Assembly: GCF_004354085.1 (NCBI RefSeq) | Contig: NZ_SMSE01000003.1 | Coordinates: forward strand, 567,231-631,230 | Length of the DNA stretch: 64,000 nucleotides | Direction of reading: 5' to 3' | Source of the DNA: Seongchinamella unica | GTDB lineage: Bacteria; Pseudomonadota; Gammaproteobacteria; Pseudomonadales; Halieaceae | Part shown: one piece after another, positions 22,983-37,976 of the stretch | Layout of the letters: every line of letters begins with the position of its first letter | Numbering within the stretch: the stretch's first letter is position 1 | Program-made: the position numbers and the translations under genes | The notes under the pieces: generated by a model | What the model saw: the letters and a program-made list of their open reading frames with translations, nothing else | Told to the model about the DNA's origin: nothing | Database searches by the model: none

Positions 22983-23384
22983 ATGGCTATGGAACACGCA
23001 ATGCCCCTCGGCACAGGGGAGGCCCCCTGCTGCCTGCGCCCGGAACGGCCGGACACCCCATACCGCTACCGCACCACCGACCGGGTGCTGCAAATCCTGC
23101 TCGACGGCGACCTGGCCCGACTGCGGGCAGAGTCGGTTGCCCACAGTATGGGCATCAGCCCCACCACCCTCAGGCGACGACTGCGCGCGGATCACACCCA
23201 CTACCAGTTCCTGCTGGACCGGGCTCGCCAGTACCGCTGCGAACAGCAGTTGCGCAACGTCTGGCTTCCGGGCAAGTGCCTGGCAGACCAGCTGGGCTAC
23301 CTCGAGGTCAACAGCTTCTACCGGGCCTTCCGCCGCTGGACGGGGCTGAATTACAGTGAGTACAAGGAGCGGTACTGCAGCTGA
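22983..23384 (+). CDS. AraC-type helix-turn-helix protein without sensor domain
   Basis: 133 aa containing essentially only an AraC-like DNA-binding domain: first HTH in RAESVAHSMGISPTTLRRRL and second in LADQLGYLEVNSFYRAFRRW, ending TGLNYSEYKERY. The usual N-terminal ligand-binding domain is missing. Start at 22983 follows AAGGATGTT; a frame extension to 22938 adds an implausible stretch across the hairpin. Could be a full-length small regulator or the remnant of a larger one; no flanking sequence suggests the missing domain. Confidence 0.78.
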   Translation: MAMEHAMPLGTGEAPCCLRPERPDTPYRYRTTDRVLQILLDGDLARLRAESVAHSMGISPTTLRRRLRADHTHYQFLLDRARQYRCEQQLRNVWLPGKCLADQLGYLEVNSFYRAFRRWTGLNYSEYKERYCS

Positions 23385-23442
23385 GCTCGGTCACGGTCAG
23401 GCCGCGTGCCCCAGTTAACGGACCCTCATCACTGCAACGAAC

Positions 23443-23622
23443 AAGGTGAATTGCGCCGCAGGCGCAAGAGAGGGTGCCCTGGGGTACAAGGTGAATTGCG
23501 CCGCAGGCGCAAGAGAGGGTGCCCTGGGGTACAAGGTGAATTGCGCCGCAGGCGCAAGAGAGGGTGCCCTGGGGTACGAGGTGAATTGCGCCGCAGGCGC
23601 AAGAGAGGGTGCCCTGGGGCAA
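23443..23622. repeat. Four tandem 45-bp hairpin repeats inside REP-like halves
   Basis: Four near-identical 45-bp units (23443, 23488, 23533, 23578). Each holds the hairpin TTGCGCC-GCA-GGCGCAA (seven-bp stem) followed by GAGAGGGTGCCCTGGGG. The array is followed by CAAGCCGGAATCC, one half of a REP-like palindrome. Because 45 is a multiple of three, open frames with 15-residue repeats run through both strands; they are not genes. Related arrays lie at 33610 and 37291-37840. Confidence 0.92.
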
Positions 23623-23643
23623 GCCGGAATCCGATGACCGCGC

Positions 23644-24330
23644 TCATGCATCCCGCATTCGCAGCAGACTGAGCCCGAGCCAAAGAAACCAAACAATCTG
23701 TGAGAGCCCGAAGATATCGGTAAACACTTCCACGGGGAGGATCGTTGCAAGACCAAATGCGCCGACAAGACAGCCCAGGCTGTTCAACGCCCTCGGCAAT
23801 ACCCTGTACCTTAGACCGAGCAGACTCACGCCAGCCACCCATAACCCACCAACAATCTCGTTACCGCCACCGAGACTGTCGCCGAGCATCGAGATAACTC
23901 GCCATAATTGGAAGGCTGCCTCCGAGCTGTCGGGCAGAAGGCCGACAACCTGCTTCAGGCCGGTGACATAGATCATTCCACTCGCCATGACGAGCCCAAC
24001 CCAAACCGCGCCAAACAGCGAAGTGAGTAACGCTGCTGGCCCGTAGGGGCTTAGCAGGTCATGTAATCCGGCGACCATGACTGCCAGTAAGGCCCCGAAC
24101 AAAATATAGATTGCGCCATAGGCTATAGAGATGGCCAGCTGATTCTCATCCAAAAACCGGAGTTTTTCTTCCTGAGTGCCATGTGACGGGTAATCGAAGA
24201 ACGCGCCAAAATAGACGAAGGCTGCAATGTAAATAAGGGCCATCGCGAGTCCGGAACAGCCTGCGGCGGAGCGTAGACTAATCATCGGGGTTTCAGTGCC
24301 GGCCAAGCGATGTGGATTATGGTGTGTCAA
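23644..24330 (-). CDS. DUF4386-like integral membrane protein
   Basis: Up to 228 aa with about six hydrophobic segments, for example ALIYIAAFVYFGAFF, YGAIYILFGALLAVMVAGL, LLTSLFGAVWVGLVMASGMI and IVGGLWVAGVSLLGL. The layout and length resemble DUF4386 proteins, which have no known function. The start is uncertain: TTG at 24330 has GAGG eight bases upstream, while ATG at 24285 (MISLRSAAG) has no clear site. It ends 22 bp from the 45-bp repeat array, convergent with the AraC-like gene. Confidence 0.7.
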   Translation of the reverse strand: MTHHNPHRLAGTETPMISLRSAAGCSGLAMALIYIAAFVYFGAFFDYPSHGTQEEKLRFLDENQLAISIAYGAIYILFGALLAVMVAGLHDLLSPYGPAALLTSLFGAVWVGLVMASGMIYVTGLKQVVGLLPDSSEAAFQLWRVISMLGDSLGGGNEIVGGLWVAGVSLLGLRYRVLPRALNSLGCLVGAFGLATILPVEVFTDIFGLSQIVWFLWLGLSLLRMRDA

Positions 24331-24443
24331 CGTGAACGCCTCGCGAGTTGCAATTGACGCGTTAGATTAACGCATTCCGGTTGATCCCACATACTCACCC
24401 GCGACAAACTGATTCGATTTCGCGATAGACGACTGCTGGCGAG

Positions 24444-24508
24444 GCCCAATCTGCGGTCTCAAAACTGTCCTACCCTTGCTGAGACCCACCCCCAATCGAG
24501 ACCGGTCA
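24444..24508. repeat. Dispersed ~65-bp repeat, copy 1
   Basis: GCCCAATCTGCGGTCTCAAA ... CTGAGA ... CCAATCGAG aligns with 31686-31750 at roughly four of five positions. This copy lies in the gap downstream of the 57-aa gene. No coding potential is apparent. Confidence 0.75.
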
Positions 24509-24521
24509 ACCCAGCAGCAGA

Positions 24522-24695
24522 TCACTGACACTCGTTAGCTTCTCCGATTTGTTGACGTAGTTCAATCAACTCCTCTCTTAGCGCACGAATCTCCTCTTGC
24601 AGCAGATCGCTGGGGTCCGCGTCCCATGTTAGAGCCAGTTCATAGGCGAAACTGACCCACCGTCTCAGGGAACTCGCTATGCGTTCAATGTTCAC
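24522..24695 (-). CDS. Small helical protein of unknown function (57 aa)
   Basis: A GTG start at 24695 is preceded by a perfect AGGAGG seven bases upstream, which decides the start over the longer frame to 24761. The product is predominantly helical, with DLLQEEIRALREELIELRQQ forming a likely short coiled coil and a Trp-containing first half (RRWVSFAYELALTW). It begins 38 bp after the AhpD-like gene and shares its strand, so both are probably one transcript. I do not recognise a family; a small partner or regulator of the AhpD-like protein is conceivable. Confidence 0.7.
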   Translation of the reverse strand: MNIERIASSLRRWVSFAYELALTWDADPSDLLQEEIRALREELIELRQQIGEANECQ

Positions 24696-24733
24696 GATGA
24701 AACCTCCTGGTTTGCAGGTATATGACCGCGATG

Positions 24734-25843
24734 CTAAGCAGCGACCGCCTGAGATCCGCAATTCCCAGTCTCGATCTTGGATACTATAATTTCGGCAAAC
24801 CGTCGGGCGGCCGCCGAAGACGACCAGGCCAGAATACGGATAAAGCGTTCCTCGTCCGCGCTATCGCCAAGTACGTCCCTGACCATGTCATCGGTCACTC
24901 GGTAGGATGCCTTGGCGAGAACGATTGCCAGACGTGCGATAGCCCTGTCTTCGCCCGACAGTGATTCGATGTCCTCGTCGATCCAGCGACCATCCAAAGG
25001 CATTGTTTCGCCATTCCAGCGTTTCAGAGAAGCAGTGACCGCGCTTCGCACGGGTGCCGATATCTCCTTTGCCCCCTCTGTTTCAATCGCTGCAGCGTAA
25101 CGCGCCACTGCATCGGCCACTCTGGGATTCGGACGGGCCCATTCCATGTCGCTGGGAAGCTCTGCCTCTGGCAATAATGGCAGCGCTCGACCAGGTTCGA
25201 GCTCGACCTGTCGCGTGACCTCCAGTTCAGATCCGAACAATCTCAACGCCAGTGCCTTAATGGAGCGCAGTCCAAATGGAGCCGAGACCGGTGAGCCTGT
25301 CATGACCACATGGCTGAACCTGTTGATATCGCTCATGCCCATCAGTGTGCCAATGACCTCGGGTAACTGCTCTTCGGAGAATGGAGTTTCTGGCAGGGGT
25401 TCGCCGCACGAGGTCGCCAGAGTGGCCACCCACTCAAGCCGGCGACGCAGCAGGTTGTCAGGCTGATCGAATTTCGAAGCGGCAAAAATTTCCATTGCCG
25501 CATCGTGTTCACCTCCGGCATGTACCAGACTTATCAACATATCCTCACAGTATGGGCAATCGTTGATCTGTGACAGTACAGCGGAAATGGCGTCCTTGGT
25601 TGTACGATCGACCTTGTCAGGAACCAGCATAGCTTCTCGCCCGACTGTCCAGATAGCCGCCATCATTCCCGGTACTCTGGATCTGCTGGTGAGCGAACCA
25701 TTCTTAAAGAAGTCCTCGCGAATCATCTTGTAGACTTCCCTTGTCTGCCCCTCTGCCTCCCGGGTTTTCACCGCAGTGACATAGCGCATTGTCTGCACTG
25801 ACAGAGTGTCAAACAACCAGTATCTAATTTTTGCTGGCAACAT
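24734..25843 (-). CDS. AhpD-like / carboxymuconolactone-decarboxylase-fold protein
   Basis: 369 aa. The N-terminal half contains the AhpD redox motif: DCPYCEDMLISLVHAGG, with CxxC and downstream His. AhpD-like proteins use these cysteines for peroxide reduction or thiol chemistry. The C-terminal half (PNPRVADAVARYAAAIETEG ... LAWSSSAAARRFAEIIV) looks like a second, degenerate helical copy without cysteines. The start has an excellent AGGAGGACTGATA site. It is divergent from an HxlR-type regulator 120 bp away, the classic arrangement for a redox- or electrophile-controlled gene. Confidence 0.8.
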   Translation of the reverse strand: MLPAKIRYWLFDTLSVQTMRYVTAVKTREAEGQTREVYKMIREDFFKNGSLTSRSRVPGMMAAIWTVGREAMLVPDKVDRTTKDAISAVLSQINDCPYCEDMLISLVHAGGEHDAAMEIFAASKFDQPDNLLRRRLEWVATLATSCGEPLPETPFSEEQLPEVIGTLMGMSDINRFSHVVMTGSPVSAPFGLRSIKALALRLFGSELEVTRQVELEPGRALPLLPEAELPSDMEWARPNPRVADAVARYAAAIETEGAKEISAPVRSAVTASLKRWNGETMPLDGRWIDEDIESLSGEDRAIARLAIVLAKASYRVTDDMVRDVLGDSADEERFIRILAWSSSAAARRFAEIIVSKIETGNCGSQAVAA

Positions 25844-25963
25844 TATCAGTCCTCCTGTGTGGGTTTCGTGTTACAGCAAGCCTGATCCTAAGGACCCGTG
25901 ACCCAGACAGCTAGTACAACTTTTGTACTACCATGTTCACTGCTAAGCGTATAGAGTTAAGTC
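25844..25963. promoter_or_regulatory. Divergent promoter region of the AhpD-like and HxlR genes
   Basis: 120 bp holding both promoters. AGTACAACTTTTGTACT (25913-25929) is an eight-bp perfect inverted repeat around one base: a strong candidate operator for the adjacent HxlR protein, whose family binds such palindromes. Confidence 0.65.
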
Positions 25964-26653
25964 ATGATTGAGTACGGCCAATTCTGCCCAATTGCCAAAG
26001 CTTCTGAAGTTCTGGGTGAACGGTGGACAAACCTCGTTGTTCGTGAGCTGGGCGCTGGAAGCGAGACCTTTAACGATCTTCGAAGAGGACTTCCTTTGAT
26101 GTCCCCTTCGTTGCTCTCGGCCCGCCTCAAATTCCTGGAAGCGGCTGGTGTTGTTGAACGGTCAGATTCCGGTAAAAGGATTCGTTACACACTCACGGAA
26201 GCCGGTCGCGAACTGAAACCCATACTACTGGCGCTGGGCACCTGGGGGCAGCGCTGGGCGCCCACCCGGTTTGAGCCCAAAGACCTTGATCCTTCAATGC
26301 TCATGTGGGATATCCACCGAAGCATGAAGGCGGATTATTTCGGCCAACACCACACGGTACTACTCTTTGAGTTCGAAGATTACACATCGAAACACCGGCG
26401 ATGGTGGTTGATTGTTGAGCGTGGGGAAGTCGACGTCTGTATGAGAGATCCTGGTTATGACGTGGATCTGCATATTCTGACAGATGTAAAGTCGTTAACA
26501 GCCATCTGGCTGGGTCAGATCACCTTCGCACAGGCGATCCGCAGAAAGCTGTTGAAGATGGCTGGAGATTCACAGCTGAAAAAAGATATTCACCTATGGC
26601 TTGGAACGAACTACTTCTCGAGCGTGAAATCTGTTAACCCTGTTCGCATATAG
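25964..26653 (+). CDS. HxlR-family transcription regulator with C-terminal ligand-binding-like domain
   Basis: 229 aa. The first 100 residues are an HxlR winged helix: CPIAKASEVLGERWTNLVVR, FNDLRRGLPLMSPSLLSARL and ERSDSGKRIRYTLTEAGREL. The remaining part (ADYFGQHHTVLLFEFEDYTS ... LTDVKSLTAIWLGQITFAQA) resembles the SCP2-like sterol-carrier domain found fused to some HxlR regulators, so it may sense a hydrophobic ligand. Cys8 near the N-terminus is at the position used for redox sensing in HypR-type members. It likely controls its divergent neighbour. Confidence 0.87.
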   Translation: MIEYGQFCPIAKASEVLGERWTNLVVRELGAGSETFNDLRRGLPLMSPSLLSARLKFLEAAGVVERSDSGKRIRYTLTEAGRELKPILLALGTWGQRWAPTRFEPKDLDPSMLMWDIHRSMKADYFGQHHTVLLFEFEDYTSKHRRWWLIVERGEVDVCMRDPGYDVDLHILTDVKSLTAIWLGQITFAQAIRRKLLKMAGDSQLKKDIHLWLGTNYFSSVKSVNPVRI

Positions 26654-26825
26654 TCTATTGGCTCAATCCGAGTCTCAAGGCTGGCTGCCCCCTGGCTATG
26701 ACTTGGCATTACGCATGCCACACAAATTCATGAAGACAGGGTGAATCAATGCACGCTCTGATTTTGACGGCAAAGGGCCGGACAAAATGCTATTCTGAAG
26801 CGCCACGCAATGAGACGATCGACCC

Positions 26826-27722
26826 ATGAATGTCCTTGCTCCAGTTCTTTCACCCGCGGTTCGGGCATATCGCGGATCGACCACCGATCCGTTGCGTTGG
26901 GTGACGTGGAGTCCGAGAAAGGGTGACATCCTTGTGTGCACGCCGCCCAAATGTGGAACAACCTGGACTCAGACAATGCTCGCGATGCTTGTCAACGGCA
27001 GTTCGGACCTGCCGGAAAAGGTACCGGTGCTGTCTCCTTGGGTTGACGCGGACCTTGGCGTTCCCGCCGATGAAGTTGCCGCCAGTCTGGCCGCACAAAA
27101 GGGGCGGCGGGTGGTGAAAACGCATACGCCGGCAGATGGGTTTCCGATCTGGGACGGTGTAACAGTAATCGCGGTCTATCGACACCCACTGGATGTCTTC
27201 TTTTCCCTTCGCAAACACGAGGCCAACAAAAGCGTGGCCGTACCGGATCATCCGATGAGCTTATCCGTCCCGGACTCTATCCGTCTGTTTATCAACGGAT
27301 CAGCGGACCCGGACGATTTTGATAAAGACACATTGGCCTCCTTGACCCTCCACTATTGTGAAACGGTCCTTTCCGGACGCTATCCGCACCTCCACGTCCT
27401 GCACTATTCGGACATGTTGCGCGACGGCCATCGCACCGTGCAACATCTGGCCAGGGCAGCTGGCATTGAGGTCGACGCGGAACTGATTGACCAGGTCGCA
27501 GCAGCGACGGCTTTCGGGGCCATGAAGGCCAGAGCTGTCGACTATGCTCCGGTGGGCGGTACCGGCTACTGGAAATCCGACGACGGATTTTTCGATTCTG
27601 CCGGTTCTCGCAAGTGGGAAGGCCAACTCTCGCAAGCCGAGATCGAGCTTTTCAATACCCGTCTTGCTGAACTTTTGCCGGACGACAAGGCCCGAACCTG
27701 GCTGTTGGCGGGCGGCAGTTAG
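26826..27722 (+). CDS. PAPS-dependent sulfotransferase family protein
   Basis: 298-aa cytosolic-type sulfotransferase. CTPPKCGTTWTQTML is the 5'-phosphosulfate loop, VVKTHTPAD the beta strand leading to the active site, and YRHPLDVFFSLRKHE the 3'-phosphate-binding segment; YWKSDDGFFDSAGSRKW near the end resembles the C-terminal PAPS-binding GxxGxxK region, though degenerate. It would transfer sulfate from PAPS to a hydroxyl or amine of a small molecule. No sulfate-activation genes are adjacent. It is a lone gene at the edge of the AT-richer block; acceptor unknown. Confidence 0.87.
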   Translation: MNVLAPVLSPAVRAYRGSTTDPLRWVTWSPRKGDILVCTPPKCGTTWTQTMLAMLVNGSSDLPEKVPVLSPWVDADLGVPADEVAASLAAQKGRRVVKTHTPADGFPIWDGVTVIAVYRHPLDVFFSLRKHEANKSVAVPDHPMSLSVPDSIRLFINGSADPDDFDKDTLASLTLHYCETVLSGRYPHLHVLHYSDMLRDGHRTVQHLARAAGIEVDAELIDQVAAATAFGAMKARAVDYAPVGGTGYWKSDDGFFDSAGSRKWEGQLSQAEIELFNTRLAELLPDDKARTWLLAGGS

Positions 27723-27763
27723 TGGCACTTCCGGGCCGCCTGAACAGTGTTTCCTCGGAGATT

Positions 27764-27796
27764 TCTACAACCGATTGAATCCACACCGAATAGCGG
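27764..27796. repeat. Short dispersed repeat, copy 1 (inverted relative to 31571)
   Basis: GAATCCACACCGAATAGCGG (27777-27796) matches the reverse complement of 31571-31590 at 19 of 20 bases, and similarity continues on its left side to about 27764. It lies between the sulfotransferase and the next small membrane-protein gene. Confidence 0.75.
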
Positions 27797-27851
27797 CCTC
27801 AGCCCCTGAGTCATCTATTCTATAACAACCATTAACAACTGGATTTGTGGC

Positions 27852-28322
27852 ATGAAATTTTTTACCGCTTGGATGGAGGTGCTGGCAAACATAGGCGTTT
27901 TGGCCGGAATTATATTCCTGACTATTGAGGTATCTCAAAACACACTCGCGACGAAAAGCGAAGCATCTTTGGCGATTCAGACTTCAATATCGGAGTCAAT
28001 TTCTGACTTATCAAGCAATCCTGAGGTATTCGATGTAATTGCCAAGGTCTATGCAGAAGAGGAGCTAACAGAAAAAGAGCGACTCCTGGCTTCTTTTCGC
28101 TTCCATTCCACTCTGACAATGATGGAGGGCGCGTTAATGCAGTATCAACTGGGAGTCATCGATATGTCTGTTATCAACTCTTTCGATGACGAGCTATACG
28201 AGCTGACCCACAGCTCAGAATTTGCTCGGTGGAACTGGAAGAACCAGGCAAACAGTTTTTCTCCGCAGATGCAGCGTCATGTTGCCGAAGTGATAGCAAG
28301 AGAAACAAAAAATCGGACGTGA
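27852..28322 (+). CDS. Single-pass membrane protein with helical domain, unknown function (156 aa)
   Basis: One N-terminal membrane segment (VLANIGVLAGIIFLTIEVSQ) followed by a mostly helical, acidic soluble domain. I recognise no catalytic motif. The plan (membrane segment, then EVxxN/S and 100-130 helical residues) is shared with the genes at 28656 and 29908, although their sequences are not closely similar. AT-richer than region 1. The family is unknown to me; DUF4760-like or similar uncharacterised families are possible. Confidence 0.65.
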   Translation: MKFFTAWMEVLANIGVLAGIIFLTIEVSQNTLATKSEASLAIQTSISESISDLSSNPEVFDVIAKVYAEEELTEKERLLASFRFHSTLTMMEGALMQYQLGVIDMSVINSFDDELYELTHSSEFARWNWKNQANSFSPQMQRHVAEVIARETKNRT

Positions 28323-28401
28323 TTTGGCAATTCCGCGATGGATATCGTCGTGTGCGGCAAAGACTAGCTAAAGAAAGTAGCGGAATCTTGGCCGTCCATA
28401 G

Positions 28402-28593
28402 AGAACAATCCCTGATTGGCACGCCATAGATGGCCGTCGACTCGTGGTAGGTTGGAAAGAGAGGCCTTCGGGCCGAGACGCGGTAACACCTTATCGTGGA
28501 GTTTCTAGTTTTTTGCTGGACGATCAGGGGAAAATCAAAAATTACGTGGACACATCCAATATGCAGGAGGTCATAGCAGCTTTTAGCTCGTAA
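28402..28593 (+). pseudogene. Fragment of a SnoaL/NTF2-like protein
   Basis: An open stretch with no start codon, following an in-frame TAG at 28399-28401, translates as DWHAIDGRRLVVGWKERPSG, then PYRGVSSFLLDDQGKIKNYV and a short tail to TAA. This is the C-terminal strand pair of a SnoaL/NTF2-like domain (GR.L..GW, GkI..YVD). The remainder of the domain is not found upstream in any frame, so it appears to be a decayed remnant in the 333-bp gap between two genes. Confidence 0.6.
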
Positions 28594-28601
28594 ATGTCCT
28601 C

Positions 28602-28637
28602 TTTCGCCTTTTAAACGGTATGATCCTCACTGTATCA
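28602..28637 (+). promoter_or_regulatory. Diverged copy of the TTTCGCC promoter-like box
   Basis: TTTCGCC (28602-28608) followed by TTTTAAACGGTATGATCCT resembles the boxes at 29335, 29847 and 31763 but lacks the same internal spacing. It lies 19-54 bp before the 186-aa gene. Confidence 0.35.
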
Positions 28638-28655
28638 ATAGCAGGGGGGTAGATC

Positions 28656-29216
28656 ATGTCATTCACAGAGATAACGGCTGTACTGGGTAACTTAGGTGGT
28701 TTCATTGGGGCTATCGCGGTGGTGGTGACCCTGTTTTATCTGGCAACGGAGGTCAAGCACAGTAAGGAGGCTACCGAGGCCAATACCCGATCATTGGAGG
28801 AGGGTAGGAATCTAGCGTTAGTACAGACTTATCAAGCAAACTTGTTTAGGAAAAGCGACTATTTGATGAGGTTGTCTGAGTCACCAATGTTGCCGGCTCG
28901 CCTAAAATACTTTGAGTTAGGCTATAACGCGCTTGATTCAACTGAGCGTTTTTATATGCGGACGACGATATTGAGTCAGGTGGCGGATGTGACTGCTCGC
29001 CATTATGCAATGGAAAAGGGATTAGCGCCTGAATATTTGGAAGTGTTTCCGGCACTTCTGAGGGAGCAAAGGAAAAGCTGGGAGGAATTTGGGATATTTC
29101 CGTTGGGGGATGAATTTCGTGAGTCCTTCAAGCGCGATGTGGAAAGAGTATTCTCCGAGCAAGATGAGGAGGTTGCTGCTGCAGGGGCAGCACACTCATC
29201 AGAGGATAATGTCTGA
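28656..29216 (+). CDS. Single-pass membrane protein with helical domain, unknown function (186 aa)
   Basis: N-terminal membrane segment (LGGFIGAIAVVVTLFYLATE) then a long helical domain with conserved-looking RKSDYLMRLSESP and WEEFGIFPLGDEFRESFKRD. Ends in an acidic, low-complexity tail. Same plan as the flanking genes at 27852 and 29908. No enzyme motif is seen. A GGGGGG-rich leader with AGGGGGGTAGATC precedes the ATG. Confidence 0.65.
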   Translation: MSFTEITAVLGNLGGFIGAIAVVVTLFYLATEVKHSKEATEANTRSLEEGRNLALVQTYQANLFRKSDYLMRLSESPMLPARLKYFELGYNALDSTERFYMRTTILSQVADVTARHYAMEKGLAPEYLEVFPALLREQRKSWEEFGIFPLGDEFRESFKRDVERVFSEQDEEVAAAGAAHSSEDNV

Positions 29217-29334
29217 GCAACTAAGCTCTATAGGCCTTCTTTTTACAATCGACTTCTGATGTACGGGTCGGGGTAACCACAATCGTAATAGCTTAGACTT
29301 GATCTGACAGACAGTGTCAGAATCGTACGTCCCA

Positions 29335-29370
29335 TTTCGCCTATTAAGAGACCTCGGTCTATCCTTGTTG
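29335..29370 (+). promoter_or_regulatory. Conserved 36-bp promoter-like box before the 122-aa gene
   Basis: TTTCGCCTATTA ... CTCGG ... TATCCTTGTTG. The TATCCT part could be a -10 hexamer and TTCGCC, 18 bp upstream, a -35-like element. It ends 27 bp before the ATG. Near-identical boxes precede 29908 and 31825 at the same distance. Confidence 0.6.
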
Positions 29371-29397
29371 GGGTTCTGACAACACGGAGAAAAAGAA

Positions 29398-29766
29398 ATG
29401 ACCGAGTACGAGCTATCTGATCTCATTAACAGCATCTCAAGTAATATCGTTCAGGGACAAGCTGTTTTCCTAACAACTATCACAGCATATCTTGTAGTGG
29501 CCTATTCTGTCGGTGCGAAGCTAACGCGCTTTCAGGTGTCTTTCATAAACTTTGTGTATATCCTATTTGGGCTAGTTGGCATTCAGGGTCAACTCTATAA
29601 TTTTGACCGAGCTTACTACTGGGGAGGAAAGCTCGCGGAACTGAGCGGCGAATCCCCCACGTCTGCAGAAAACGCGTCTCCATGGGTGTTTATCTCGGTT
29701 CGGCTTGTCATGGTAATCGGATCGTTGATCTTTATGTGGCAGGTCAGGCATCCCAAAACAGAGTGA
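29398..29766 (+). CDS. Three-span membrane protein, unknown function, paralogue of 31825
   Basis: 122 aa beginning MTEYELSDLI. Three hydrophobic stretches: TTITAYLVVAYSVGAKLT, FINFVYILFGLVGIQ and VFISVRLVMVIGSLIFMWQV, ending VRHPK. The paralogue at 31825 shares the MTEYE start, AYLVVAY.VG.KLTR.Q and FMW.VRHPK. I know no function. Its own promoter-like box suggests independent expression. Confidence 0.72.
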   Translation: MTEYELSDLINSISSNIVQGQAVFLTTITAYLVVAYSVGAKLTRFQVSFINFVYILFGLVGIQGQLYNFDRAYYWGGKLAELSGESPTSAENASPWVFISVRLVMVIGSLIFMWQVRHPKTE

Positions 29767-29846
29767 TGCGGCTTGGCTAGTGTCTCTGTAGAGGTGATAG
29801 CGGAAGCTTTCACTTCTCACATCCGAATTCCTAGTCAGGCTTCCCC

Positions 29847-29882
29847 TTTCGCCTATTAGTGGACATCGGGTTATCCTTGTTG
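29847..29882 (+). promoter_or_regulatory. Conserved 36-bp promoter-like box before the 162-aa gene
   Basis: TTTCGCCTATTA ... CATCGGG ... TATCCTTGTTG, matching the box at 29335 in 31 or so of 36 positions and ending 25 bp before the ATG at 29908. Confidence 0.6.
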
Positions 29883-29907
29883 TAGGAATCCAATACGGAA
29901 AACAAGG

Positions 29908-30396
29908 ATGAAACTACCTACCTATCAATTCGTTGCTCAAATGGCTGCGGCTGCCGCAGTGGTCATTTCACTGGCTCTGGTTGCATACGAGCTCAAACTG
30001 AGCCGAGATACCGCAGTTGGAGAGCTTGCGGTCTCAGTACATGAGTTGGAGGCCAGTGTTTATCTCGAGGTGCTTGATGTCGCGGAGTACAACAAAGCTA
30101 TTTATAAACTGGAGAACAACGAAGAAGAGTTAACGTGGAGCGAGCACAAAAATTTATTTCGAATAGTCATGACCAGCACCGGTATAGCGACTGCAAAATA
30201 TGAGCTTTGGAAACTTGGTCTTCTTAGCGATGCCGAGTGGGAATGGGAAGTAAGAAAAATAAAGGACAACTGGAGCAACTTAGAAATCTGGCGTGAGCTT
30301 ATGTATTCCGGTAACTATAAAAATGACGAATTCATTCAGTTATTAGACGAAATCACGACTGAGTGGGAGGCAGAACGAGCCAGCGCAATGGAATAG
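29908..30396 (+). CDS. Single-pass membrane protein with helical domain, unknown function (162 aa)
   Basis: Membrane segment AAAAAVVISLALVAYELKLS near the N-terminus, then a helical, Glu/Trp-rich domain (WSEHKNLFRIVMTSTGIATA, SDAEWEWEVRKIKDNWSNLE). The promoter-like box at 29847 and AACAAGG before the ATG define the start. Same plan as 27852 and 28656. No known domain recognised. Confidence 0.68.
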   Translation: MKLPTYQFVAQMAAAAAVVISLALVAYELKLSRDTAVGELAVSVHELEASVYLEVLDVAEYNKAIYKLENNEEELTWSEHKNLFRIVMTSTGIATAKYELWKLGLLSDAEWEWEVRKIKDNWSNLEIWRELMYSGNYKNDEFIQLLDEITTEWEAERASAME

Positions 30397-30614
30397 ATGC
30401 GAAATGTCTCTGATCAAAATAGGTCAGGTTTGAGGTGCGCTGTGCCAAACTCCGAGGCGTAGGGATGCAGCATGTCGGGCTAGGGGTATAGGGTGCCATG
30501 TCGGAATGCATTTTGCGCTTTTCGCTAGTGTCGACTATACATGCTGTTGTTAAGGCGCCAAAGCGCCATAAATTTCCTCTAACGAAGAACCAAATTTGGA
30601 GTAAGGACATAGCC

Positions 30615-31493
30615 ATGATCAAAAAACTTACATTGTCATTATCTCTAGCAATGATATCGGCAGTAAACGTGTGGGCCATTCCGTGGGGCACCCCTGATCA
30701 GAACAACGAAAGAGACAACGTCGTCACCTTCCTTTTTGCGCAACCAGTGCCAGATGAACCAGGAATTGGTTATTTTTCCTGCACTGGCACTTTAATTTCG
30801 CCGAGAGTGGTTTTGACGGCAGGCCATTGCACCGGCTTTCTTGATGAAAACGATCAACTCCAGCCTAATCTTGGAACTTGGCTGTTTACCGGCCAATCCG
30901 TCTATGAATCGTTTGACAGCTCAGGATTCGACAAGTTCGCTCAGTGGATATTCACTACGTGGGAGCACGTTACTGCAGTTCCCCATCCTGAATACAAAGA
31001 ATACGCCGAGTTCCCAAGAACATATGACGTGGGCGTGCTGTTATTGGATGTGGACGCTCCTTACCCAACAAGCAGCGGATATGGAATCCTGCCTGAAAAG
31101 GGAAAATTCGATTCACTTGATAAGAGGAAAGGTAAGCAGAATAGGTCGTTTACGGTGGTTGGCTACGGTGCACAAGAACTAGTGCCAGTTCCGTTTGTTT
31201 CTGATGACTGGGCGCGCTACATAGCCGAAGTTACCGTTACAAATACCAAAAGTTCCATTACCGGAGACTACAACTTCCAGCTCACTAATAACCCTGGTAG
31301 GGGTAACGGTGTGGGTGGAACCTGTTTTGGAGATTCAGGTGGACCGAGTTTTTGGGTTGATCCGGAAACCAGGATTGAGTACATCTCCGGCATTACGTCA
31401 TTTGGAATCACGCAATTCTGCACTGGCGTGGGTTACAACCTAAGAACAGACATTGACGATGTTCTTGATTTTGTGTTGCCCTACTTACCTTAG
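30615..31493 (+). CDS. Secreted trypsin-like (S1) serine protease
   Basis: 292 aa. Start at 30615 (MIKKLTLSLSLAMISAVNVW, signal peptide) rather than 30498, which adds 39 non-signal residues. Triad: His in VVLTAGHCTG, Asp in YDVGVLLLD, Ser in CFGDSGGPSFW. Cysteines in SCTGTL/GHC and GTCFG match conserved S1 disulfides. Soluble and likely periplasmic or extracellular. Embedded among the small membrane-protein genes but without their promoter box; a second, unrelated S1 protease is at 51811. Confidence 0.88.
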   Translation: MIKKLTLSLSLAMISAVNVWAIPWGTPDQNNERDNVVTFLFAQPVPDEPGIGYFSCTGTLISPRVVLTAGHCTGFLDENDQLQPNLGTWLFTGQSVYESFDSSGFDKFAQWIFTTWEHVTAVPHPEYKEYAEFPRTYDVGVLLLDVDAPYPTSSGYGILPEKGKFDSLDKRKGKQNRSFTVVGYGAQELVPVPFVSDDWARYIAEVTVTNTKSSITGDYNFQLTNNPGRGNGVGGTCFGDSGGPSFWVDPETRIEYISGITSFGITQFCTGVGYNLRTDIDDVLDFVLPYLP

Positions 31494-31545
31494 TGAACAA
31501 ACGGTCTGAAGTTCAGCCCGCCATCTGAACTGGCCCCCAGTCATT

Positions 31546-31586
31546 CCACACCGATAGCGAACTCGCACGTCCGCTATTAGGTGTGG
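31546..31586. terminator. Imperfect hairpin after the S1 protease gene
   Basis: CCACACC (31546-31552) pairs with GGTGTGG (31580-31586) and ATAGCG (31554-31559) with CGCTAT (31572-31577), with a small internal loop. No T-run. The right arm and its flank (31571-31603) recur inverted at 27764-27796, so this is at least partly a mobile or dispersed repeat. Confidence 0.5.
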
Positions 31587-31685
31587 ATTCAACCGGTTCT
31601 AGTCACCTATCTCTTGGTTAATGACATTGGGCTGATTGGGGTATCAAAACTCGCCAAGCCTTGATGGGTGAGACTGCCTGCAGAA

Positions 31686-31750
31686 GCCCGATCTGCGGTC
31701 TCAAAGCAGCCCCAACCTTACTGAGAATCACCGCCAATCGAGGCTGGCCA
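31686..31750. repeat. Dispersed ~65-bp repeat, copy 2
   Basis: GCCCGATCTGCGGTCTCAAA ... CTGAGAATCACCGCCAATCG, aligned with 24444-24508. It lies 13 bp upstream of the promoter-like box of the 126-aa gene. Confidence 0.75.
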
Positions 31751-31762
31751 TTTTCCAAACGC

Positions 31763-31799
31763 TTTCGCCTGCTATGCGGCATTTCGTCTATCTTTGTTG
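31763..31799 (+). promoter_or_regulatory. Conserved promoter-like box before the 126-aa gene
   Basis: TTTCGCCTGCTA ... TATCTTTGTTG, one base longer than the boxes at 29335 and 29847. It ends 25 bp before the ATG at 31825. Confidence 0.55.
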
Positions 31800-31824
31800 A
31801 AGATCTAATCATGGAGATAAACAA

Positions 31825-32205
31825 ATGACCGAATATGAAATGGGCGAACTGCTGCACAACCAGTTCGATACACTGTGGGAAAGCTCTCAAATGTATTTTA
31901 CCCTGGTCAGTGCCTACCTCGTAGTCGCTTACCTGGTGGGTGACAAACTGACTCGTAAACAGTATTCAATTGTCACTACACTGTACCTGTTTTGGGTATA
32001 TGGCGTTATTCAAACGCAGTGTGTTTCAGGAATTGGGGCAATCAGACTTGCAGAAATCATTTCTGGCAAAGAGGGGATATTGCTCCAATACTCGCACGGA
32101 TTTTTAATGGAATTTGGGATTTTCGGATTCACCGTCGTAATGGTCTGTGGTGTTTTTGCTTCGCTATACTTTATGTGGACCGTCCGGCACCCCAAACCAA
32201 TATGA
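31825..32205 (+). CDS. Three-span membrane protein, unknown function, paralogue of 29398
   Basis: 126 aa, MTEYEMGELL start, membrane segments around YFTLVSAYLVVAYLVGD, IVTTLYLFWVYGVIQ and FTVVMVCGVFASLYFMWTV, ending VRHPKPI. Similar along its length to the 122-aa protein at 29398, with the same promoter-like box. AGATAAACAA precedes the ATG. Function unknown. Confidence 0.72.
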   Translation: MTEYEMGELLHNQFDTLWESSQMYFTLVSAYLVVAYLVGDKLTRKQYSIVTTLYLFWVYGVIQTQCVSGIGAIRLAEIISGKEGILLQYSHGFLMEFGIFGFTVVMVCGVFASLYFMWTVRHPKPI

Positions 32206-32363
32206 TCGCCTTGAGGTGAACAAGGGCATTAGCACCCCGGCCTGGTGGAATCCGGGCGCGGACGTCCCTTTATCGCCCAACAGCTGACACAGGGGTTATT
32301 CCCGTAGTAAGGCAAAGGCTGTAAAGATACCGCGATAAAAAATTCAACAGAAAGCGAGTGTTT

Positions 32364-33578
32364 ATGTCAGACCAACATCCACTGTACGAACGGGAACGGC
32401 ACCGGGCGGTGAGTTCGACGCCCTGGGATGAGCAGAGCGCGCGGGAGGAGATTCGTTGCATCGTTGACGCAGTTTTTGCTGCCCGCCTGGAAACGGGTCT
32501 CTGGCCGTGTGAAATCGACTTTCCCTTGAGCCTCTATGCCGGAGTCGCCGGTATTGCCTGGGCCATCGACAGGCTGACTGATCGAGGTTATCTGGATCAA
32601 GCGCCGGTTGGCCTGTGTGCCTCTCAGCTTGCCGTTACTCCCGAGCTGATAAACTGCCCCGCATTTTTTGCGGAGTTCGATGTACCGCTATCACATTCTT
32701 TTTACCTGGGTGAAACTGGCGTCTATCTTCAGGCCTGGAAGGAAACCGGCGAACCGGGACTGTTAGATCGACTGGATCAGTTGATTGGCGCCAATATGGA
32801 GCACCCCTGGATGGAAAACCTGTGGGGAGCGCCGAGCACGATGCTGGTTGCCAGTCATCTGTACCGGGCAACCGGCGACGAGCGGTTCGCCGACCATTTG
32901 CGGCTCGGGGCCGACTATCTGTGGAACCGACTTGAGCCGCAACCCCAGACAGGCTGCCTGATGTGGGATATCGAAATTTACGGGGAACAAACCTGGTTGA
33001 CCGGCGCGGGACACGGCTATGTGGGTAACGTATTTCCGGTATTGCGTTCGCGGGAAATTTTGGGCGATGACCTATACCGGTGCTGGACCGACAGTATCGC
33101 CCAAACAGTGACTCGGACCGCCCAGCGCGAGCATGGCCTCGCCAACTGGCGTCCCAGTATCGGCAAGGCGAGGAAAGGCCGGGATAGTTTCCTTGTCCAG
33201 CAGTGCCATGGGGCACCGGGGTTTGTCATTAGCCTGGCAGCGCTTTACGGCTGCGGTTATGAAGACTTCGATCAGGTCTTGCGAGAGGCAGCCGAACTCA
33301 CCTGGCAGGCCGGACCGCTCAACAAATTTCCCGGCTTGTGCCACGGGACGCCGGGCAATGGCTATGCGCTTTTAAAGATGTATCACCTGACGGGAGATGA
33401 GCTCTGGTTGCAGCGTGCGCGTCAGTTTGCGGTTGCAGCCATTGAGCAGCGTCACGAACGTTCTGAGGCCGGGGTCAACGCCAGTTCAAATTTGTGGGAT
33501 GGGGCACTGGGTTTGGCCCTCTACCTGGCGGACTGCCTGGAGGGTAAAGCTGATTTCCCCACTCTCGATCATTTCTGA
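32364..33578 (+). CDS. Orphan LanC-like zinc protein
   Basis: 404 aa with the LanC alpha/alpha barrel repeats. The zinc ligands appear as Cys281 in QQCHGAPGF and Cys326-His327 in GLCHGTPGNGYALL; the additional active-site His is in GAGHGYVGN (about residue 217). GALGLALYLADCL is the last repeat. LanC enzymes cyclise lanthionines; LanC-like (LanCL) proteins add glutathione to dehydroamino acids. No LanB/LanM dehydratase, precursor or exporter is adjacent, so a LanCL-like role is as likely as RiPP maturation. Start at ATG 32364; GTG at 32358 is possible. A repeat array begins 32 bp after the stop. Confidence 0.85.
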   Translation: MSDQHPLYERERHRAVSSTPWDEQSAREEIRCIVDAVFAARLETGLWPCEIDFPLSLYAGVAGIAWAIDRLTDRGYLDQAPVGLCASQLAVTPELINCPAFFAEFDVPLSHSFYLGETGVYLQAWKETGEPGLLDRLDQLIGANMEHPWMENLWGAPSTMLVASHLYRATGDERFADHLRLGADYLWNRLEPQPQTGCLMWDIEIYGEQTWLTGAGHGYVGNVFPVLRSREILGDDLYRCWTDSIAQTVTRTAQREHGLANWRPSIGKARKGRDSFLVQQCHGAPGFVISLAALYGCGYEDFDQVLREAAELTWQAGPLNKFPGLCHGTPGNGYALLKMYHLTGDELWLQRARQFAVAAIEQRHERSEAGVNASSNLWDGALGLALYLADCLEGKADFPTLDHF

Positions 33579-33609
33579 CCGGGCATCCAGAAAATGCTCA
33601 AGGTCGGGT

Positions 33610-33743
33610 GGGCACCTTCTCTTGCGCTTCCAGCGCAATTCACCTTGCACCCCAGGGCACCTTCTCTTGCGCTTCCAGCGCAATTCACCTTGTACCCCAG
33701 GGCACCTTCTCTTGCACTTCCAGCGCAATTCACCTTGCACCCC
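33610..33743. repeat. Three tandem 45-bp hairpin repeats, locus 2
   Basis: Units at 33610, 33655 and 33700, inverted relative to the 23443 array. On the minus strand the hairpin reads TTGCGCT-GGA-AGCGCAA, so the outer stem is preserved while C-G has become T-A at the loop-proximal pair. The third unit has AGTGCAA, leaving a G.T wobble. The array runs directly into a REP-like half CCGGAATGACGG. Confidence 0.9.
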
Positions 33744-33763
33744 GGAATGACGGAGCCCTATAG

Positions 33764-33793
33764 CCGCTGGATTCCGGCTTTCGCCGGAATGAC
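33764..33793. repeat. REP-like palindrome
   Basis: CTGGATTCCGGC-TTTC-GCCGGAATGAC, an intact single copy of the palindrome seen at 20841, 37229 and 53065. It joins the 45-bp array on its left to the 19-bp array on its right. Confidence 0.85.
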
Positions 33794-34020
33794 GGAGAGG
33801 TACCAGGTTGACGGAGAGGTATCAGGTTGACGGAGGGGTACCAGGTTGACGGAGAGGTATCAGGTTGACGGAGGGGTACCAGGTTGACGGAGGGGTACCA
33901 GGTTGACGGAGAGGTATCAGGTTGACGGAGAGGTATCAGGATGACGGAGGGGTACCAGGGTTAGGCGAAGCGGTACCAGGTTGACGGAGGGGTACCAGGG
34001 TTAGGCGGAGCGGTATCGGG
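33791..34020. repeat. 19/20-bp minisatellite, about 12 units
   Basis: GACGGAGAGGTACCAGGTT and variants (AGGTATC, GGGGTACC) repeat every 19 bp from 33791 to about 33961. The last units become 20 bp and alternate with AGGCGAAGCGGTACCAGGTT types. Position 8 (A/G) and TACC/TATC vary in a mosaic fashion. The first unit starts with the GACGG that ends the REP-like palindrome. It stops 13 bp before the end of the convergent diguanylate-cyclase gene. Confidence 0.9.
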
Positions 34021-34032
34021 AAGGCAAGCGGC

Positions 34033-35865: not shown

Positions 35866-35978
35866 GCAGTTGTTATCACCCCTGGGGTCAGGGAAAAAGT
35901 ATAGGGCCGCGCGGGCGGAATGCGTCCCCGACGTGCCCAAAGCTTGAATCAGGTCACATAAAATCCGGAGAAAACCGC

Positions 35979-36764
35979 TTACAGCCAGCCCTGGGCCCGA
36001 TAATAGGCAAAGCCCACGTATTCCTTGATGGCGGCGGTGGTGCGTCCCAGGTCTTCCACCGTGGGCAGCCAGCGCGGCACGGCGGCTTCACCCACCAGTC
36101 GCTGGTAGTCGGTGGGGGCGGGAATCACCTCAAAGCCGGCGCGCTCGAACAGGGGCACAGCCCGGGGCATATGGTAGGCGGAGGTGACCAGCAGGATTTT
36201 TTCCACTCCCCGCCCTTCCAGCAGCGGCCGGGAGTAGGCGGCGTTCTGCCGGGTGTCGCGACTCTGGCGCTCCAGCAGCAGGGCCGTCGCCGGCAGCCCC
36301 ATCAATTCCAGGTAGTCGCCAATCTGTTCCGCCTCGGGCCGGCTGCCGGTGGTGGCACCTCCGGAAACCAGCACCAGCGGCGCCTTGCCCGCCTGGTACA
36401 ACGCCAGGCTGTGGGTAATCCGATCTGCCGCCGTGTGCAGGTCCGCCATGCTGCTCCAGTGGGCGTCACCCCGGGTGGCGCCGCCGAGCAGGACGATGGC
36501 ATCTGCGCCGGGCAGCACTGACATGGCCTTCGGCCGGTAGTCATTTTCCAGGCTGGCCATCAGCCAATCGGCGACCAGTGCGGTGGAACAGGCATACAGC
36601 CAGGTGAAAGCGATGACCAGCAAGGTCACCGCCACCCGTCGCCAGCGCATCAGCAGAATCGCCAGCAGCACCAGCAACAGCGACAGGCTCAACGGGTAGG
36701 CGAGAAGGGACAACAGCTTGGTCAGAGAGAATGAGATGGCAGGCTTCCTGTATACTCGCTGCAA
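35979..36764 (-). CDS. YdcF/ElyC-like DUF218 membrane protein
   Basis: Up to 261 aa. Two N-terminal membrane segments (SLLAYPLSLSLLLVLLAILL and AVTLLVIAFTWLYACSTALV) are followed by a DUF218 domain: ADAIVLLGGATRGD, PLVLVSGGATTG, ERQSRDTRQNAAYS and ILLVTSAYHMPRAVPLFERA. ElyC of this family is needed for envelope integrity and polymer-carrier lipid metabolism, a possible link to the neighbouring glycan genes. The start is unsure; only TTG (36764) is available at the N-terminus with a poor ribosome site. Confidence 0.82.
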   Translation of the reverse strand: MQRVYRKPAISFSLTKLLSLLAYPLSLSLLLVLLAILLMRWRRVAVTLLVIAFTWLYACSTALVADWLMASLENDYRPKAMSVLPGADAIVLLGGATRGDAHWSSMADLHTAADRITHSLALYQAGKAPLVLVSGGATTGSRPEAEQIGDYLELMGLPATALLLERQSRDTRQNAAYSRPLLEGRGVEKILLVTSAYHMPRAVPLFERAGFEVIPAPTDYQRLVGEAAVPRWLPTVEDLGRTTAAIKEYVGFAYYRAQGWL

Positions 36765-36795
36765 TCACAATACCAAGCCATAAGGGAATGAATCC

Positions 36796-37176
36796 ATGCA
36801 ATATGTCGCAATTGTCACCCTGCTGTTGTTAGTCCAGTACACGGTCTACACCCTGCTGTGCGGCATTGCCCGGGGGCAGGACACGGTGGTAGCGCCCGCC
36901 ACCAGCGGTGACGAAACCTTCGAGCGCGCCTTCCGCGTGCAGATGAACACCCTGGAGCAGATGGCGGTGACCATTCCCGCCATGTGGATTTGCGCCTACT
37001 ACTTCAGCCCGCTCTGGGCGGCGGGCCTGGGCGCAGTGTTTATGCTGGGCAGGCTGGTTTACCGGCAGGCGTACATGCGCGAGCCGTCAAGCCGCGGCAC
37101 CGGCATGATCATCGGCTTCCTGGCGAATGTGGCGCTGGTCGTGCTGGGCTTCTGGGGCGCGATCGGGCAGATTTGA
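36796..37176 (+). CDS. MAPEG family membrane protein
   Basis: 126 aa, four spans. RAFRVQMNTLEQMAVTIPAM, LGAVFMLGRLVYRQAYMREP and SRGTGMIIGFLANVALVVLG are the MAPEG signature region. Members include microsomal glutathione transferases; bacterial ones are mostly uncharacterised. AAGGGAATGAATCC precedes the ATG. It is divergent from the YdcF-like gene with 31 bp between. Confidence 0.88.
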   Translation: MQYVAIVTLLLLVQYTVYTLLCGIARGQDTVVAPATSGDETFERAFRVQMNTLEQMAVTIPAMWICAYYFSPLWAAGLGAVFMLGRLVYRQAYMREPSSRGTGMIIGFLANVALVVLGFWGAIGQI

Positions 37177-37228
37177 GCCTTACGCCCGAATGTATTAACT
37201 GGGGGTAAATCGGCCTGTACCCGGAGGC

Positions 37229-37368
37229 GCTGGATCCCCGCCTGCGCGGGGATGACGGAGTCCCGTAGGCGCTGGATTCCGGCTTGCCTCAGGGCACCCT
37301 CTCTTGCTGCGCAATTCACCTTGTACCCCAGGGCACCCTCTCTTGCTTCGCAATTCACCTTGTTCGCG
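37229..37368. repeat. REP-like palindrome plus two 39-bp hairpin units, locus 3
   Basis: An intact REP-like palindrome (37229-37255) is followed by a second one whose loop is replaced: CTGGATTCCGGCTTG (37272-37286), then two 39-bp units (37291 and 37330), then TTCGCGGGAAT. In these units the hairpin is TTGC-GCA-GCAA or TTGC-GAA-GCAA on the minus strand: each arm is three bases shorter than in the 45-bp form. Confidence 0.88.
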
Positions 37369-37383
37369 GGAATAGAGAAATGA

Positions 37384-37862
37384 GCGCAATAGCAAACCCC
37401 GTCATTCCCGCGCACGCGGGAATCCAGGGACGTTGAAGCCAAAAACAGGGAGATCACGAGACTCCCGCTTGCCCCAGGGCACCTTCTCTTGCTTAGCAAT
37501 TCACCTTGTACCCCAGGGCACCCCCTCTTGCTGCGCAATTCACCTTGTTCGCGGGGATGAAGAGAAATGAACGCAATAGCGAACCCCGTCATTCCCGCGC
37601 ACGCGGGAATCCAGGGACTTTGAAGCCAAAAACAGGGAGATCACGGGACTCCCGCTTGCCCAGGGCACCCCCTCTTGCTGCGCAATTCACCTTGTTCGCG
37701 GGGATGAGGAGAAATGAACGCAATAGCGAACCCCGTCATTCCCGCGCACGCGGGAATCCAGGGACTTTGAAGCCAAAAACAGGGAGATCACGGGACTCCC
37801 GCTTGCCCAGGGCACCCTCTCTTGCTGCGCAATTCACCTTTTCCGCCGGAATGACGAAGTCC
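37384..37862. repeat. Macro-tandem repeat of REP-like and hairpin units (187 + 147 + ~145 bp)
   Basis: Three head-to-tail copies start at GCGCAATAGC/ACGCAATAGC: 37384, 37571 and 37718. Each contains a REP-like palindrome (GTCATTCCCGCG...CGCGGGAATCCAG), AAGCCAAAAACAGGGAGATC, then CTCCCGCTTGC, hairpin unit(s) and TTCGCGGGGATGA. Copy A has two hairpin units (37476, 37515) and is 40 bp longer; B (37662) and C (37809) have one. The whole 800-bp gap between the MAPEG gene and galE is made of this material, with small AATGACGGACATTTGCTG repeats up to 37976. Confidence 0.88.
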
Positions 37863-37976
37863 TGTAGCCGCTGGATTCCGGCCTACGCCGGAATGACGGA
37901 CATTTGCTGAAACCACAGGCCTTTGCGGAACGACCGACATTTGCTGCAATGACAGGCCTTTGCCGGGATGGCGGTG

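Follow-up and report, generated by a model that had tools for sequence, protein, structure and literature searches.

A short repeated unit in Seongchinamella unica is most likely a very small non-autonomous mobile element that has been joined, in single-stranded folded form, into the loops of hairpins. Sequence comparison shows insertion of the exact unit, mostly without target duplication, into varied hosts and with a patchy presence among near relatives. The same comparison shows strong covariation, an enrichment of the sites in hairpin loops and a 3|1 position in most of the four-base loops. The units were analyzed starting from a window, a 64,000-nucleotide stretch of the S. unica genome (G000), which was compared with seven genus mates (G001-G007) and with more distant genomes and viral contigs.

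Results and Discussion

Units and REPs in the window

The preliminary description had placed the same unit at six sites, next to or between the halves of a REP-like palindrome. By eye, all six sites were confirmed and hold 13 units in total, with lengths of 45 or 38-39 bp (Table 1). The reported difference between 45 and 39 bp, three bases in each arm of one hairpin, was borne out as three base pairs of stem P2 (TTGCGCC/GGCGCAA or TTGCGCT/AGCGCAA vs. TTGC/GCAA), except that the shorter unit is 38 bp at the two single-unit sites, because stem P3 is one G shorter there. Allowing at most one mismatch, AAGGTGAATTG gave 14 matches in the window, 13 within the six unit sites and one elsewhere, as compared to a mean of 0.75 and a maximum of 4 in 100 shuffles. 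With the covariance model (E≤1) 13 matches were obtained, of which 12 fall in unit sites; the other, at 23768, is weak (E 0.21). Unit four of the 23442-23621 array was missed in this search and recovered in the covariance listing of the genome set. Across the whole S. unica genome AAGGTGAATTGC-N(0-14)-GCAAGAGA had 21 exact matches, and its reversed control had none.

Table 1. Unit sites, unit-free REPs and larger segments in the 64-kb window
Feature	Position	Strand	Basis or remark
Array, four 45-bp units	23442..23621	+	Sequence; covariance-model matches; flanked by a degenerate left REP half and a good REP half
Array, three 45-bp units, the lowest-coordinate one truncated in P3	33610..33737	-	Only one REP half visible
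Two 39-bp units, REP halves either side	37285..37362	-	Sequence, covariance-model matches
Two 39-bp units, REP halves either side	37470..37547	-	Sequence, covariance-model matches
Single 38-bp unit, REP halves either side	37657..37694	-	Sequence, covariance-model matches
Single 38-bp unit, REP halves either side	37804..37841	-	Sequence, covariance-model matches
Unit-free REP	33769..33794	+	REP-pattern match G000:C4:600999-601024
Unit-free REP	37873..37898	+	REP-pattern match G000:C4:605103-605128
Unit-free REP, 29 bp identical to the joined flanks of filled site L003	37230..37258	-	
Unit-free REP	37400..37425	-	REP-pattern match G000:C4:604630-604655
Unit-free REP within a 147-bp repeated block	37587..37612	-	REP-pattern match
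Unit-free REP within a 147-bp repeated block	37734..37759	-	REP-pattern match
10.7-kb stretch missing from seven genus mates between the same two flanking blocks	23378..34031	.	
Segment of about 800 bp with REPs and units; in G006 the aligned blocks are 5 bp apart	37171..37978	.	

The blocks that flank the 10.7-kb stretch sit 11-106 bp apart in G001-G007, and unit arrays lie near both ends of the stretch, in opposite orientation to each other.

The association with REP halves held in large part, as at least one half was seen by eye at 30 of the 34 sites listed (window, G000, G006 and G007); within the window, the sites at 33610 and 23443 depart from the full arrangement (Table 1). The proposal of a single entity, a REP whose inner hairpin array can expand, was not supported, since uninterrupted REPs are common in the S. 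unica genome and the unit is also found away from REPs, in other phyla, within an IS91-type transposase gene, within viral genes and over the last codons of a gene that by eye is HlyD-like. The S. unica genome gave 50 matches to one REP pattern (≤2 mismatches), which cannot match filled REPs, so that a ratio of filled to unfilled REPs is not derivable from this number. When a tetranucleotide tag (GTAG or CGTC) and one palindromic stem are taken to define a REP/REPIN, the host palindrome fits, and the unit, with two hairpins and no tag, does not. Judged from these comparisons, the unit appears to be a separate element that entered REP loops and not a REP module.

Fold and covariation of the unit

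The unit is 38-46 bp long and its ends appear to be the ends of its own fold. The predicted order is AAGGTGAA, stem P2, GAGARG and a 4-bp stem P3 with the loop CTGG. Hairpin 1 would consist of one pair closing its edges, an internal loop (AAGGTGAA/GAGARG) and stem P2, and hairpin 2 (P3, CTGG) directly adjoins it. In an alignment of 103 sequences and 12 pairs (A1) 96.6% of the cells pair. Sliding the columns by 1-3 positions reduced this to 45.1-49.1%, and shuffles gave a mean of 76.5%, with 0 of 500 as high as the observed value. The alignment holds 103 of 165 candidates, near-duplicates and L047, L049, L067, L078 and L093 being excluded, and because a fixed core was used in the sampling, four P2 pairs were unable to vary in it. 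Three candidates (L172, L179 and L180) are by eye chance pattern hits without P3, of which L179 and L180 were kept in the alignment and count as misses.

The outer arms of P2 were fully paired in 199 of 203 distinct contexts, comprising eight Watson-Crick arm types and two with wobble. Arms that change independently are therefore rare, 4 of the 203 contexts being without at least one of the four outer pairs. Among the long units of G000, G006 and G007 the 7-bp arms were perfect in 32 of 36 contexts and showed a single departure in 4. Among 128 cases overall the edge pair (-1/+3) was C-G in 71, G-C in 45 and T-A in 6. The covariation supports the earlier suggestion of selection on a hairpin and extends it to a second hairpin, P3, and to the edge pair, neither of which had been named.

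On the unit strand, G-T cells outnumbered A-C cells by 67:18. Four isolated units folded no better than their shuffles (z −0.86, +2.27, −1.74 and +0.77). At 88 of 149 sites the exact unit ends are uncertain by one base or more, and terminal inverted repeats are absent from the unit consensus. Rfam gave no covariance-model match at gathering score in the window, no match at E≤10 in 37240-37900, and eight matches in seven other loci, none of them overlapping the units.

Filled and empty sites

An empty-site-like match was found for 51 of 148 distinct sites, five of these matches being trivial because they are array neighbours. Filled and empty sites appear to differ by exactly the folded unit. 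The viral contigs L305 and L306, for example, are a 45-nt insertion apart, with identical 40-base flanks and 99.2-99.8% identity over 2.3 kb. Target duplication was absent from the filled/empty pairs analyzed in detail (IS91-type genes and L305/L306), and a one-base gap at the joint was seen in 2 of the 51 pairs (L051 and L052 against L029); the pair L113/L127 was dropped, as only short pieces aligned. The left neighbour base of the unit was A at 80 of 125 sites.

Location of sites in hairpin loops

A location in a hairpin loop was found for 49 of 166 sites, as compared to 920 of 37,921 random positions (2.4%) drawn from most, not all, of the loci that supplied the sites. Four-base loops were interrupted 3|1 in 15 of 18 cases, the reversed REPs L141 and L144 among them. 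A fold-based loop test, which is weaker than the stem count, gave 43 of 104 sites vs. 632 of 2080 random positions outside G000/G006 (p 0.019), and 15 of 21 vs. 126 of 420 inside these genomes. Some units are located within larger repeats (L385-L397) and the sites are thus not all independent, therefore p-values are nominal. In a junction-anchored stem test, 40 of 121 sites in the named genomes exceeded the 95th percentile set by mismatched flanks; the numbers were only 3 of 21 for G000, 2 of 18 for G006 and 3 of 22 for the viral contigs, three sets that took in array flanks. A three-way junction in which the outer stem is obligatory was rejected, since the first gapped test was weak and the later test showed the stem to be frequent, not obligatory.

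We propose that the unit would move as a folded single strand, with DNA likelier than RNA, and that a putative trans-acting enzyme would open another folded hairpin at its loop and join the unit there. REPs may serve as targets because they are abundant hairpins. Arrays, which were found at 7 of 21 G000/G006 sites, could arise from repeated insertion at the unit junction or from slippage; elsewhere single units were present at 102 of 104 sites. Array length is variable, with two units at L257 and three at the syntenic L251.

Distribution and gene context

The same fold was found in Clostridia, Gammaproteobacteria, Zetaproteobacteria and viral contigs. Run on the S. unica genome and its relatives, the covariance model matched 3 of 8 genus genomes, with 35 units each in G000 and G006 and one in a third, and had no match in the other five. 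Matches were present in all of 40 genomes (1-71 copies, E≤0.001), which were chosen from genomes already hit in an earlier search and not sampled at random. At E≤1e-6, the window's class had 15 matching genomes out of 369, its own genome counted, and the class of genome G106 had 5 out of 391, with G106 and G115 counted. With a clostridial unit as query four faecal phage records were matched, and one 45-bp window unit had no match in plasmids or E. coli. An 800-bp window stretch matched three plasmid-collection records over 5-8% of its length, by query position in the REP part and not in the unit.

Among the 25 clusters listed no common neighbour gene was found; the largest comprised four loci from related viral contigs, and a serine-recombinase-like cluster comprised three. 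No autonomous copy with a gene between its halves was seen among the matches listed from 1.14 Mb of loci around the units. In the same 1.14 Mb, 15 matches to a 3' half lay outside exact units; a filter removed four, and among the 11 listed 10 were by eye complete variant units and one was likely due to chance. None of the literature titles and abstracts among the matches listed, most of the subscription papers being outside reach, described the unit.

It is unlikely that the unit is instead a host regulatory RNA, that is, a protein- or ligand-binding element of the 3'-UTR that is kept for its effect on the mRNA and spread via selection and duplication. The strand-specific wobble and the conserved, aptamer-like internal loop and CTGG loop would fit such a role, as would the co-orientation of the upstream gene, which with a crude ORF caller was seen at 18 of 22 proteobacterial and 27 of 47 clostridial intergenic sites (49 of 125 sites inside ORFs set aside) and at 19 of 26 G000/G006 sites (sites inside ORFs and three of one cluster dropped). 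However, the five genus genomes without a match, the lack of a shared neighbour gene among the 25 clusters listed and the existence of empty sites argue against it, as do the units found within coding sequence, in viral genes and in IS-type genes.

Candidate enzymes

The link to RAYT transposases drawn in the preliminary description was not upheld. The S. unica genome yielded one Y1 gene; it lies on contig C5, for which no unit is listed, and no unit is seen in its 250-300 bp flanks. Of 42 unit-bearing genomes, 32 had a match to Y1_Tnp (PF01797), in one case below the family cut-off, and the other 10, which carry up to 49 units, had none; RAYT/Y1 as mover was rejected because Y1 is absent from unit-rich genomes. 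A related reading, in which the unit itself is immobile and travels in REP-unit-REP composites carried by a RAYT-type Y1 transposase, would account for the many REP halves and Y1_Tnp matches. We consider it quite unlikely given the genomes without Y1_Tnp, the units outside REPs that have empty counterparts, and the filled REP loops, which include five different sequences (GAAA, GCAG, GGAA, CTGC and ATCC).

PF04986 was matched in 8 of the 42 genomes, and in G000, G006 and G007 a unit extends over the stop codon of an IS91-type gene. An origin as the end (oriIS) of an IS91/ISCR element with a Y2 transposase was rejected, since the relatives L264 and L266 are without the unit, which shows it to be an insertion there. 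RVT_1 was matched in 21 of the 42 genomes and in none of G000, G006, G106 and G124 (35, 35, 49 and 39 units), and a reverse transcriptase as common enzyme was rejected because it is missing from these unit-rich genomes. The same absence makes very unlikely an RNA-level route in which a transcript of the unit would be joined to other RNAs at their hairpin loops and then reverse transcribed, although loss of the gene or a gap in the assembly could explain why the enzyme is missing; the RNA-like wobble and covariation and the structure-determined loop position would fit such a route. No common enzyme was thus found among the three types tested (RAYT/IS200, IS91-type and reverse transcriptase). 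The unit strand showed no GC-skew bias (positive at 41 of 91 and 21 of 34), which counts against a lagging-strand ssDNA route, as this predicts a bias.

Known elements and significance

IS200/IS605 peel-and-paste elements are hairpin-bounded and move by a single-strand route without target duplication, features that the unit would share; the genomes without Y1 and the absent GC-skew bias set it apart. MITEs are defined by terminal inverted repeats and target site duplication; the former are absent from the unit consensus and the latter from the filled/empty pairs analyzed in detail. ISPpu9, ISPpu10 and ISPsy8 are insertion sequences that encode a transposase. They resemble the unit as mobile DNA targeting REPs (PMC1525189), whereas the unit is gene-free and only 38-46 bp. 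The host palindromes by eye fit the CGTC-tagged REPs outlined in PMC3733652, with a CGTC end, an 8-bp stem with AT first, a 4-base loop and a CCA tail; the unit sits in the REP loop and has neither the tag nor that stem. According to the same paper, CGTC REPs apparently lack a dedicated transposase.

BOX of Streptococcus pneumoniae, boxA-(boxB)n-boxC, is similar in that a small inner module, in a variable number of tandem copies, lies between two outer modules; array length is strain-dependent, and in the predicted fold boxB makes few contacts with boxA and boxC (PMC3049150). Compared with boxB by description only, the unit differs as it is also solitary and occurs in several phyla and in unrelated palindromes. 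Rickettsia palindromic elements are likewise small palindromic mobile DNA found in frame within genes (PMC10969869); set beside the unit by description only, they are about 150 bp and known from Rickettsia.

Possibly, and we suggest this tentatively, the unit represents a new class of mobile DNA, gene-free and of about 45 nt, whose entire sequence is one recognition fold. It would cross phyla and phages by joining its folded strand into hairpin loops, with loop geometry setting the position, by an enzyme outside the RAYT, IS91-type and reverse transcriptase groups. If true, the unit would rank with the smallest known mobile elements, with a fold common to Clostridia and Proteobacteria and structure-guided insertion points. 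This turns the movement of gene-free palindromic repeats, the CGTC REPs among them, into a testable question, and an enzyme that places a short strand in hairpin loops at a fixed position would, if real, be technically useful.

Unit copies and host palindromes in the window

The repeated two-hairpin unit occurs in 13 copies at six places in the window. The preliminary description had reported its repetition, and the long and short forms of P2 (the stem of hairpin 1), from reading the bases, and at that level it was correct. The long form is 45 bp with a 7-bp P2 and the short form 39 bp with a 4-bp P2; two copies are 38 bp. Judged by eye, the surrounding palindromes are of the CGTC-REP type, whose features PMC3733652 gives as CGTC, a CCA tail and an 8-bp stem that starts with AT and closes a four-base loop.

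Unit copies in the window, with window positions and strand
Feature	Position	Strand
Unit array, four copies	23442-23621	+
Unit array, three copies	33610-33737	-
Unit groups of two, two, one and one copies	between 37285 and 37841	-

In all seven genus mates the blocks flanking 23378-34031 lie only 11-106 bp apart, and in G006, one of these mates, 5 bp stand in place of 37171-37978. The unit arrays near the two ends of 23378-34031 have opposite orientation. This 10.7-kb segment, missing between the same blocks in the genus mates, carries HxlR, sulfotransferase, trypsin-like and LanC-like genes, and five of its ORFs had no Pfam match among those scanned. A 19-bp tandem repeat (about TGACGGAGRGGTAYCAGGT; 9-11 in-register copies, 33790-34010) adjoins REP and units, and a pair of 37-bp direct repeats (37889-37962) lies next to the last REP.

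The fold is supported by covariation

Hairpin 1 spans base -1 to +3 and consists of the pair -1/+3, an internal loop of AAGGTGAA opposite GAGARG, and P2; hairpin 2 (P3), with four pairs and the loop CTGG, follows directly. The edge pair -1/+3 (n=128) was C-G in 71, G-C in 45 and T-A in 6. In the unit alignment, where the four outer P2 pairs are fixed by the search pattern, 96.6% of cells were paired as compared to 45.1-49.1% in slid versions. Cells changed on both sides numbered 225 vs. 68.8 in shuffles, and the number of pairs with a double change showed no excess (8 vs. 7.2). All four outer P2 pairs were kept in 199 of 203 distinct contexts, mostly recruited by pattern or model. Their arms were TTGC/GCAA, TTGG/CCAA, TGGC/GCCA, TTGA/TCAA, TTTC/GAAA, TTCC/GGAA, TCGC/GCGA and TTGT/ACAA, with two further types containing a wobble; wobble cells were biased to the unit strand (G-T 67 vs. 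A-C 18). The predicted fold is supported by covariation and not by energy, since single units were predicted to fold no better than shuffled sequence, and the four-unit array, which folds better than shuffles (z -6.52), does so with units pairing with each other.

Clean insertion and preference for hairpin loops

When the flanks of 148 distinct sites were joined and the uninterrupted sequence was sought in the compared loci, 51 sites had an empty-site-like match, five of them trivial neighbours inside an array; by eye, two of the 51 (L051, L052) had a one-base gap at the joint. The sharpest case is a pair of viral contigs, L305 and L306, with identical 40-base flanks and 99.2-99.8% identity over 2.3 kb, about 360 bp at the distal end being unaligned. 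They differ by the 45-nt unit, which lies where a gene begins; relatives of this gene carry exonuclease or DUF2800 annotations. An IS91-type gene contains the unit in G000 (the window's own genome) and in the genus mates G006 and G007; in loci L264 and L266 the gene is free of it. Judged from these comparisons, the unit appears to insert cleanly. The exact boundary was ambiguous by at least one base in 88/149 sites. The base left of the unit was A in 80/125, also where the unit ends in G (34/59).

In four viral contigs (L160, L161, L174, L177) a DUF2800-like protein begins with residues read in frame from the unit. The remaining 79 of 80 relatives retained match from query residue 9 onward only, which fits absence of the unit; in 5 of the 30 phage records listed the match starts at residue 1-2, and these may contain the unit.

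Sites within the loop of an 8-bp stem (at most one mismatch) were found in 49/166 cases vs. 920 of 37,921 random positions drawn from most of the same loci; a test on predicted-fold loops agreed, more weakly outside the genus (43/104 sites vs. 632/2080), the p-values being nominal because not all copies are independent. Four-base loops were split after the third base in 15/18, including GAAA, GCAG, GCAC, GGAA, CTGC and ATCC across several genera, and in REPs of both orientations. The insertion position tracks the unit-strand loop and not the REP sequence, which suggests that the target is a folded single strand.

Among the 42 unit-bearing genomes, where draft assemblies may hide genes, matches were missing in 10 for Y1 (RAYT/IS200-type), in 34 for IS91-type enzymes and in 21 for reverse transcriptase; five had none of the three, including G106 with 49 units and G124 with 39. 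We favour a single-strand DNA route driven by some enzyme; movement through RNA is the bolder alternative.

Distribution, arrays and neighbouring genes

With a pattern of 20 fixed bases plus gap, exact matches numbered 21 in the window's own genome, and a single relative among the 96 searched had 22. At least 117 stretches in named genomes match the pattern (single matches may be chance), by record title in Clostridia (Oscillospiraceae, Lutispora, Agathobaculum, Flavonifractor), Gammaproteobacteria, Zetaproteobacteria (Mariprofundus) and others. A covariance model was built from 103 of 165 candidate copies. Of the eight genus genomes, three had copies by this model (35, 35 and 1) and five had none; each of the 40/40 genomes chosen by us from the pattern-scan matches had 1-71 copies. 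At E<=1e-6 the model matched 15/369 genomes of the window's class (own genome counted) and 5/391 from the class that G106 belongs to (G106 itself and G115 counted). The unit is rare, widespread and patchily distributed.

The single-contig 1.54-Mb genome G458 holds at least 15 copies (L385-L397), several with shared flanks as parts of a larger repeat and some, by eye, in frame close to the start of an IS3 orfA-like gene. G116 (L049, titled Patescibacteria) gave 16 model matches, the sole copy inspected being without a proper P3; its Y1 and reverse transcriptase matches contain in-frame TGA codons. In L127 (1432-1501) two head-to-head units make, by eye, one long palindrome.

Arrays were present at 7/21 sites in G000 and G006, and single units at 102/104 sites elsewhere. 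Near the end of a gene that appears HlyD-like by eye, a syntenic array holds two units in G000 and three in G006, with both P2 arms changed, to TGGC/GCCA. In two pooled gene-orientation surveys the upstream gene was co-oriented with the unit in 64/95 sites and downstream genes showed no orientation bias, so an effect on mRNA 3' ends is possible.

The unit is smaller than BOX, REPs, RPEs and MITEs (BOX and RPEs compared by description) and, unlike these taken together, it is without inverted ends, inserts mostly without target duplication, enters loops and has a fold common to several phyla. Among the matches listed in the literature searched, no description of it was found. The unit would be a kind of small non-autonomous repeat, and there is a fair chance that it is something beyond that.
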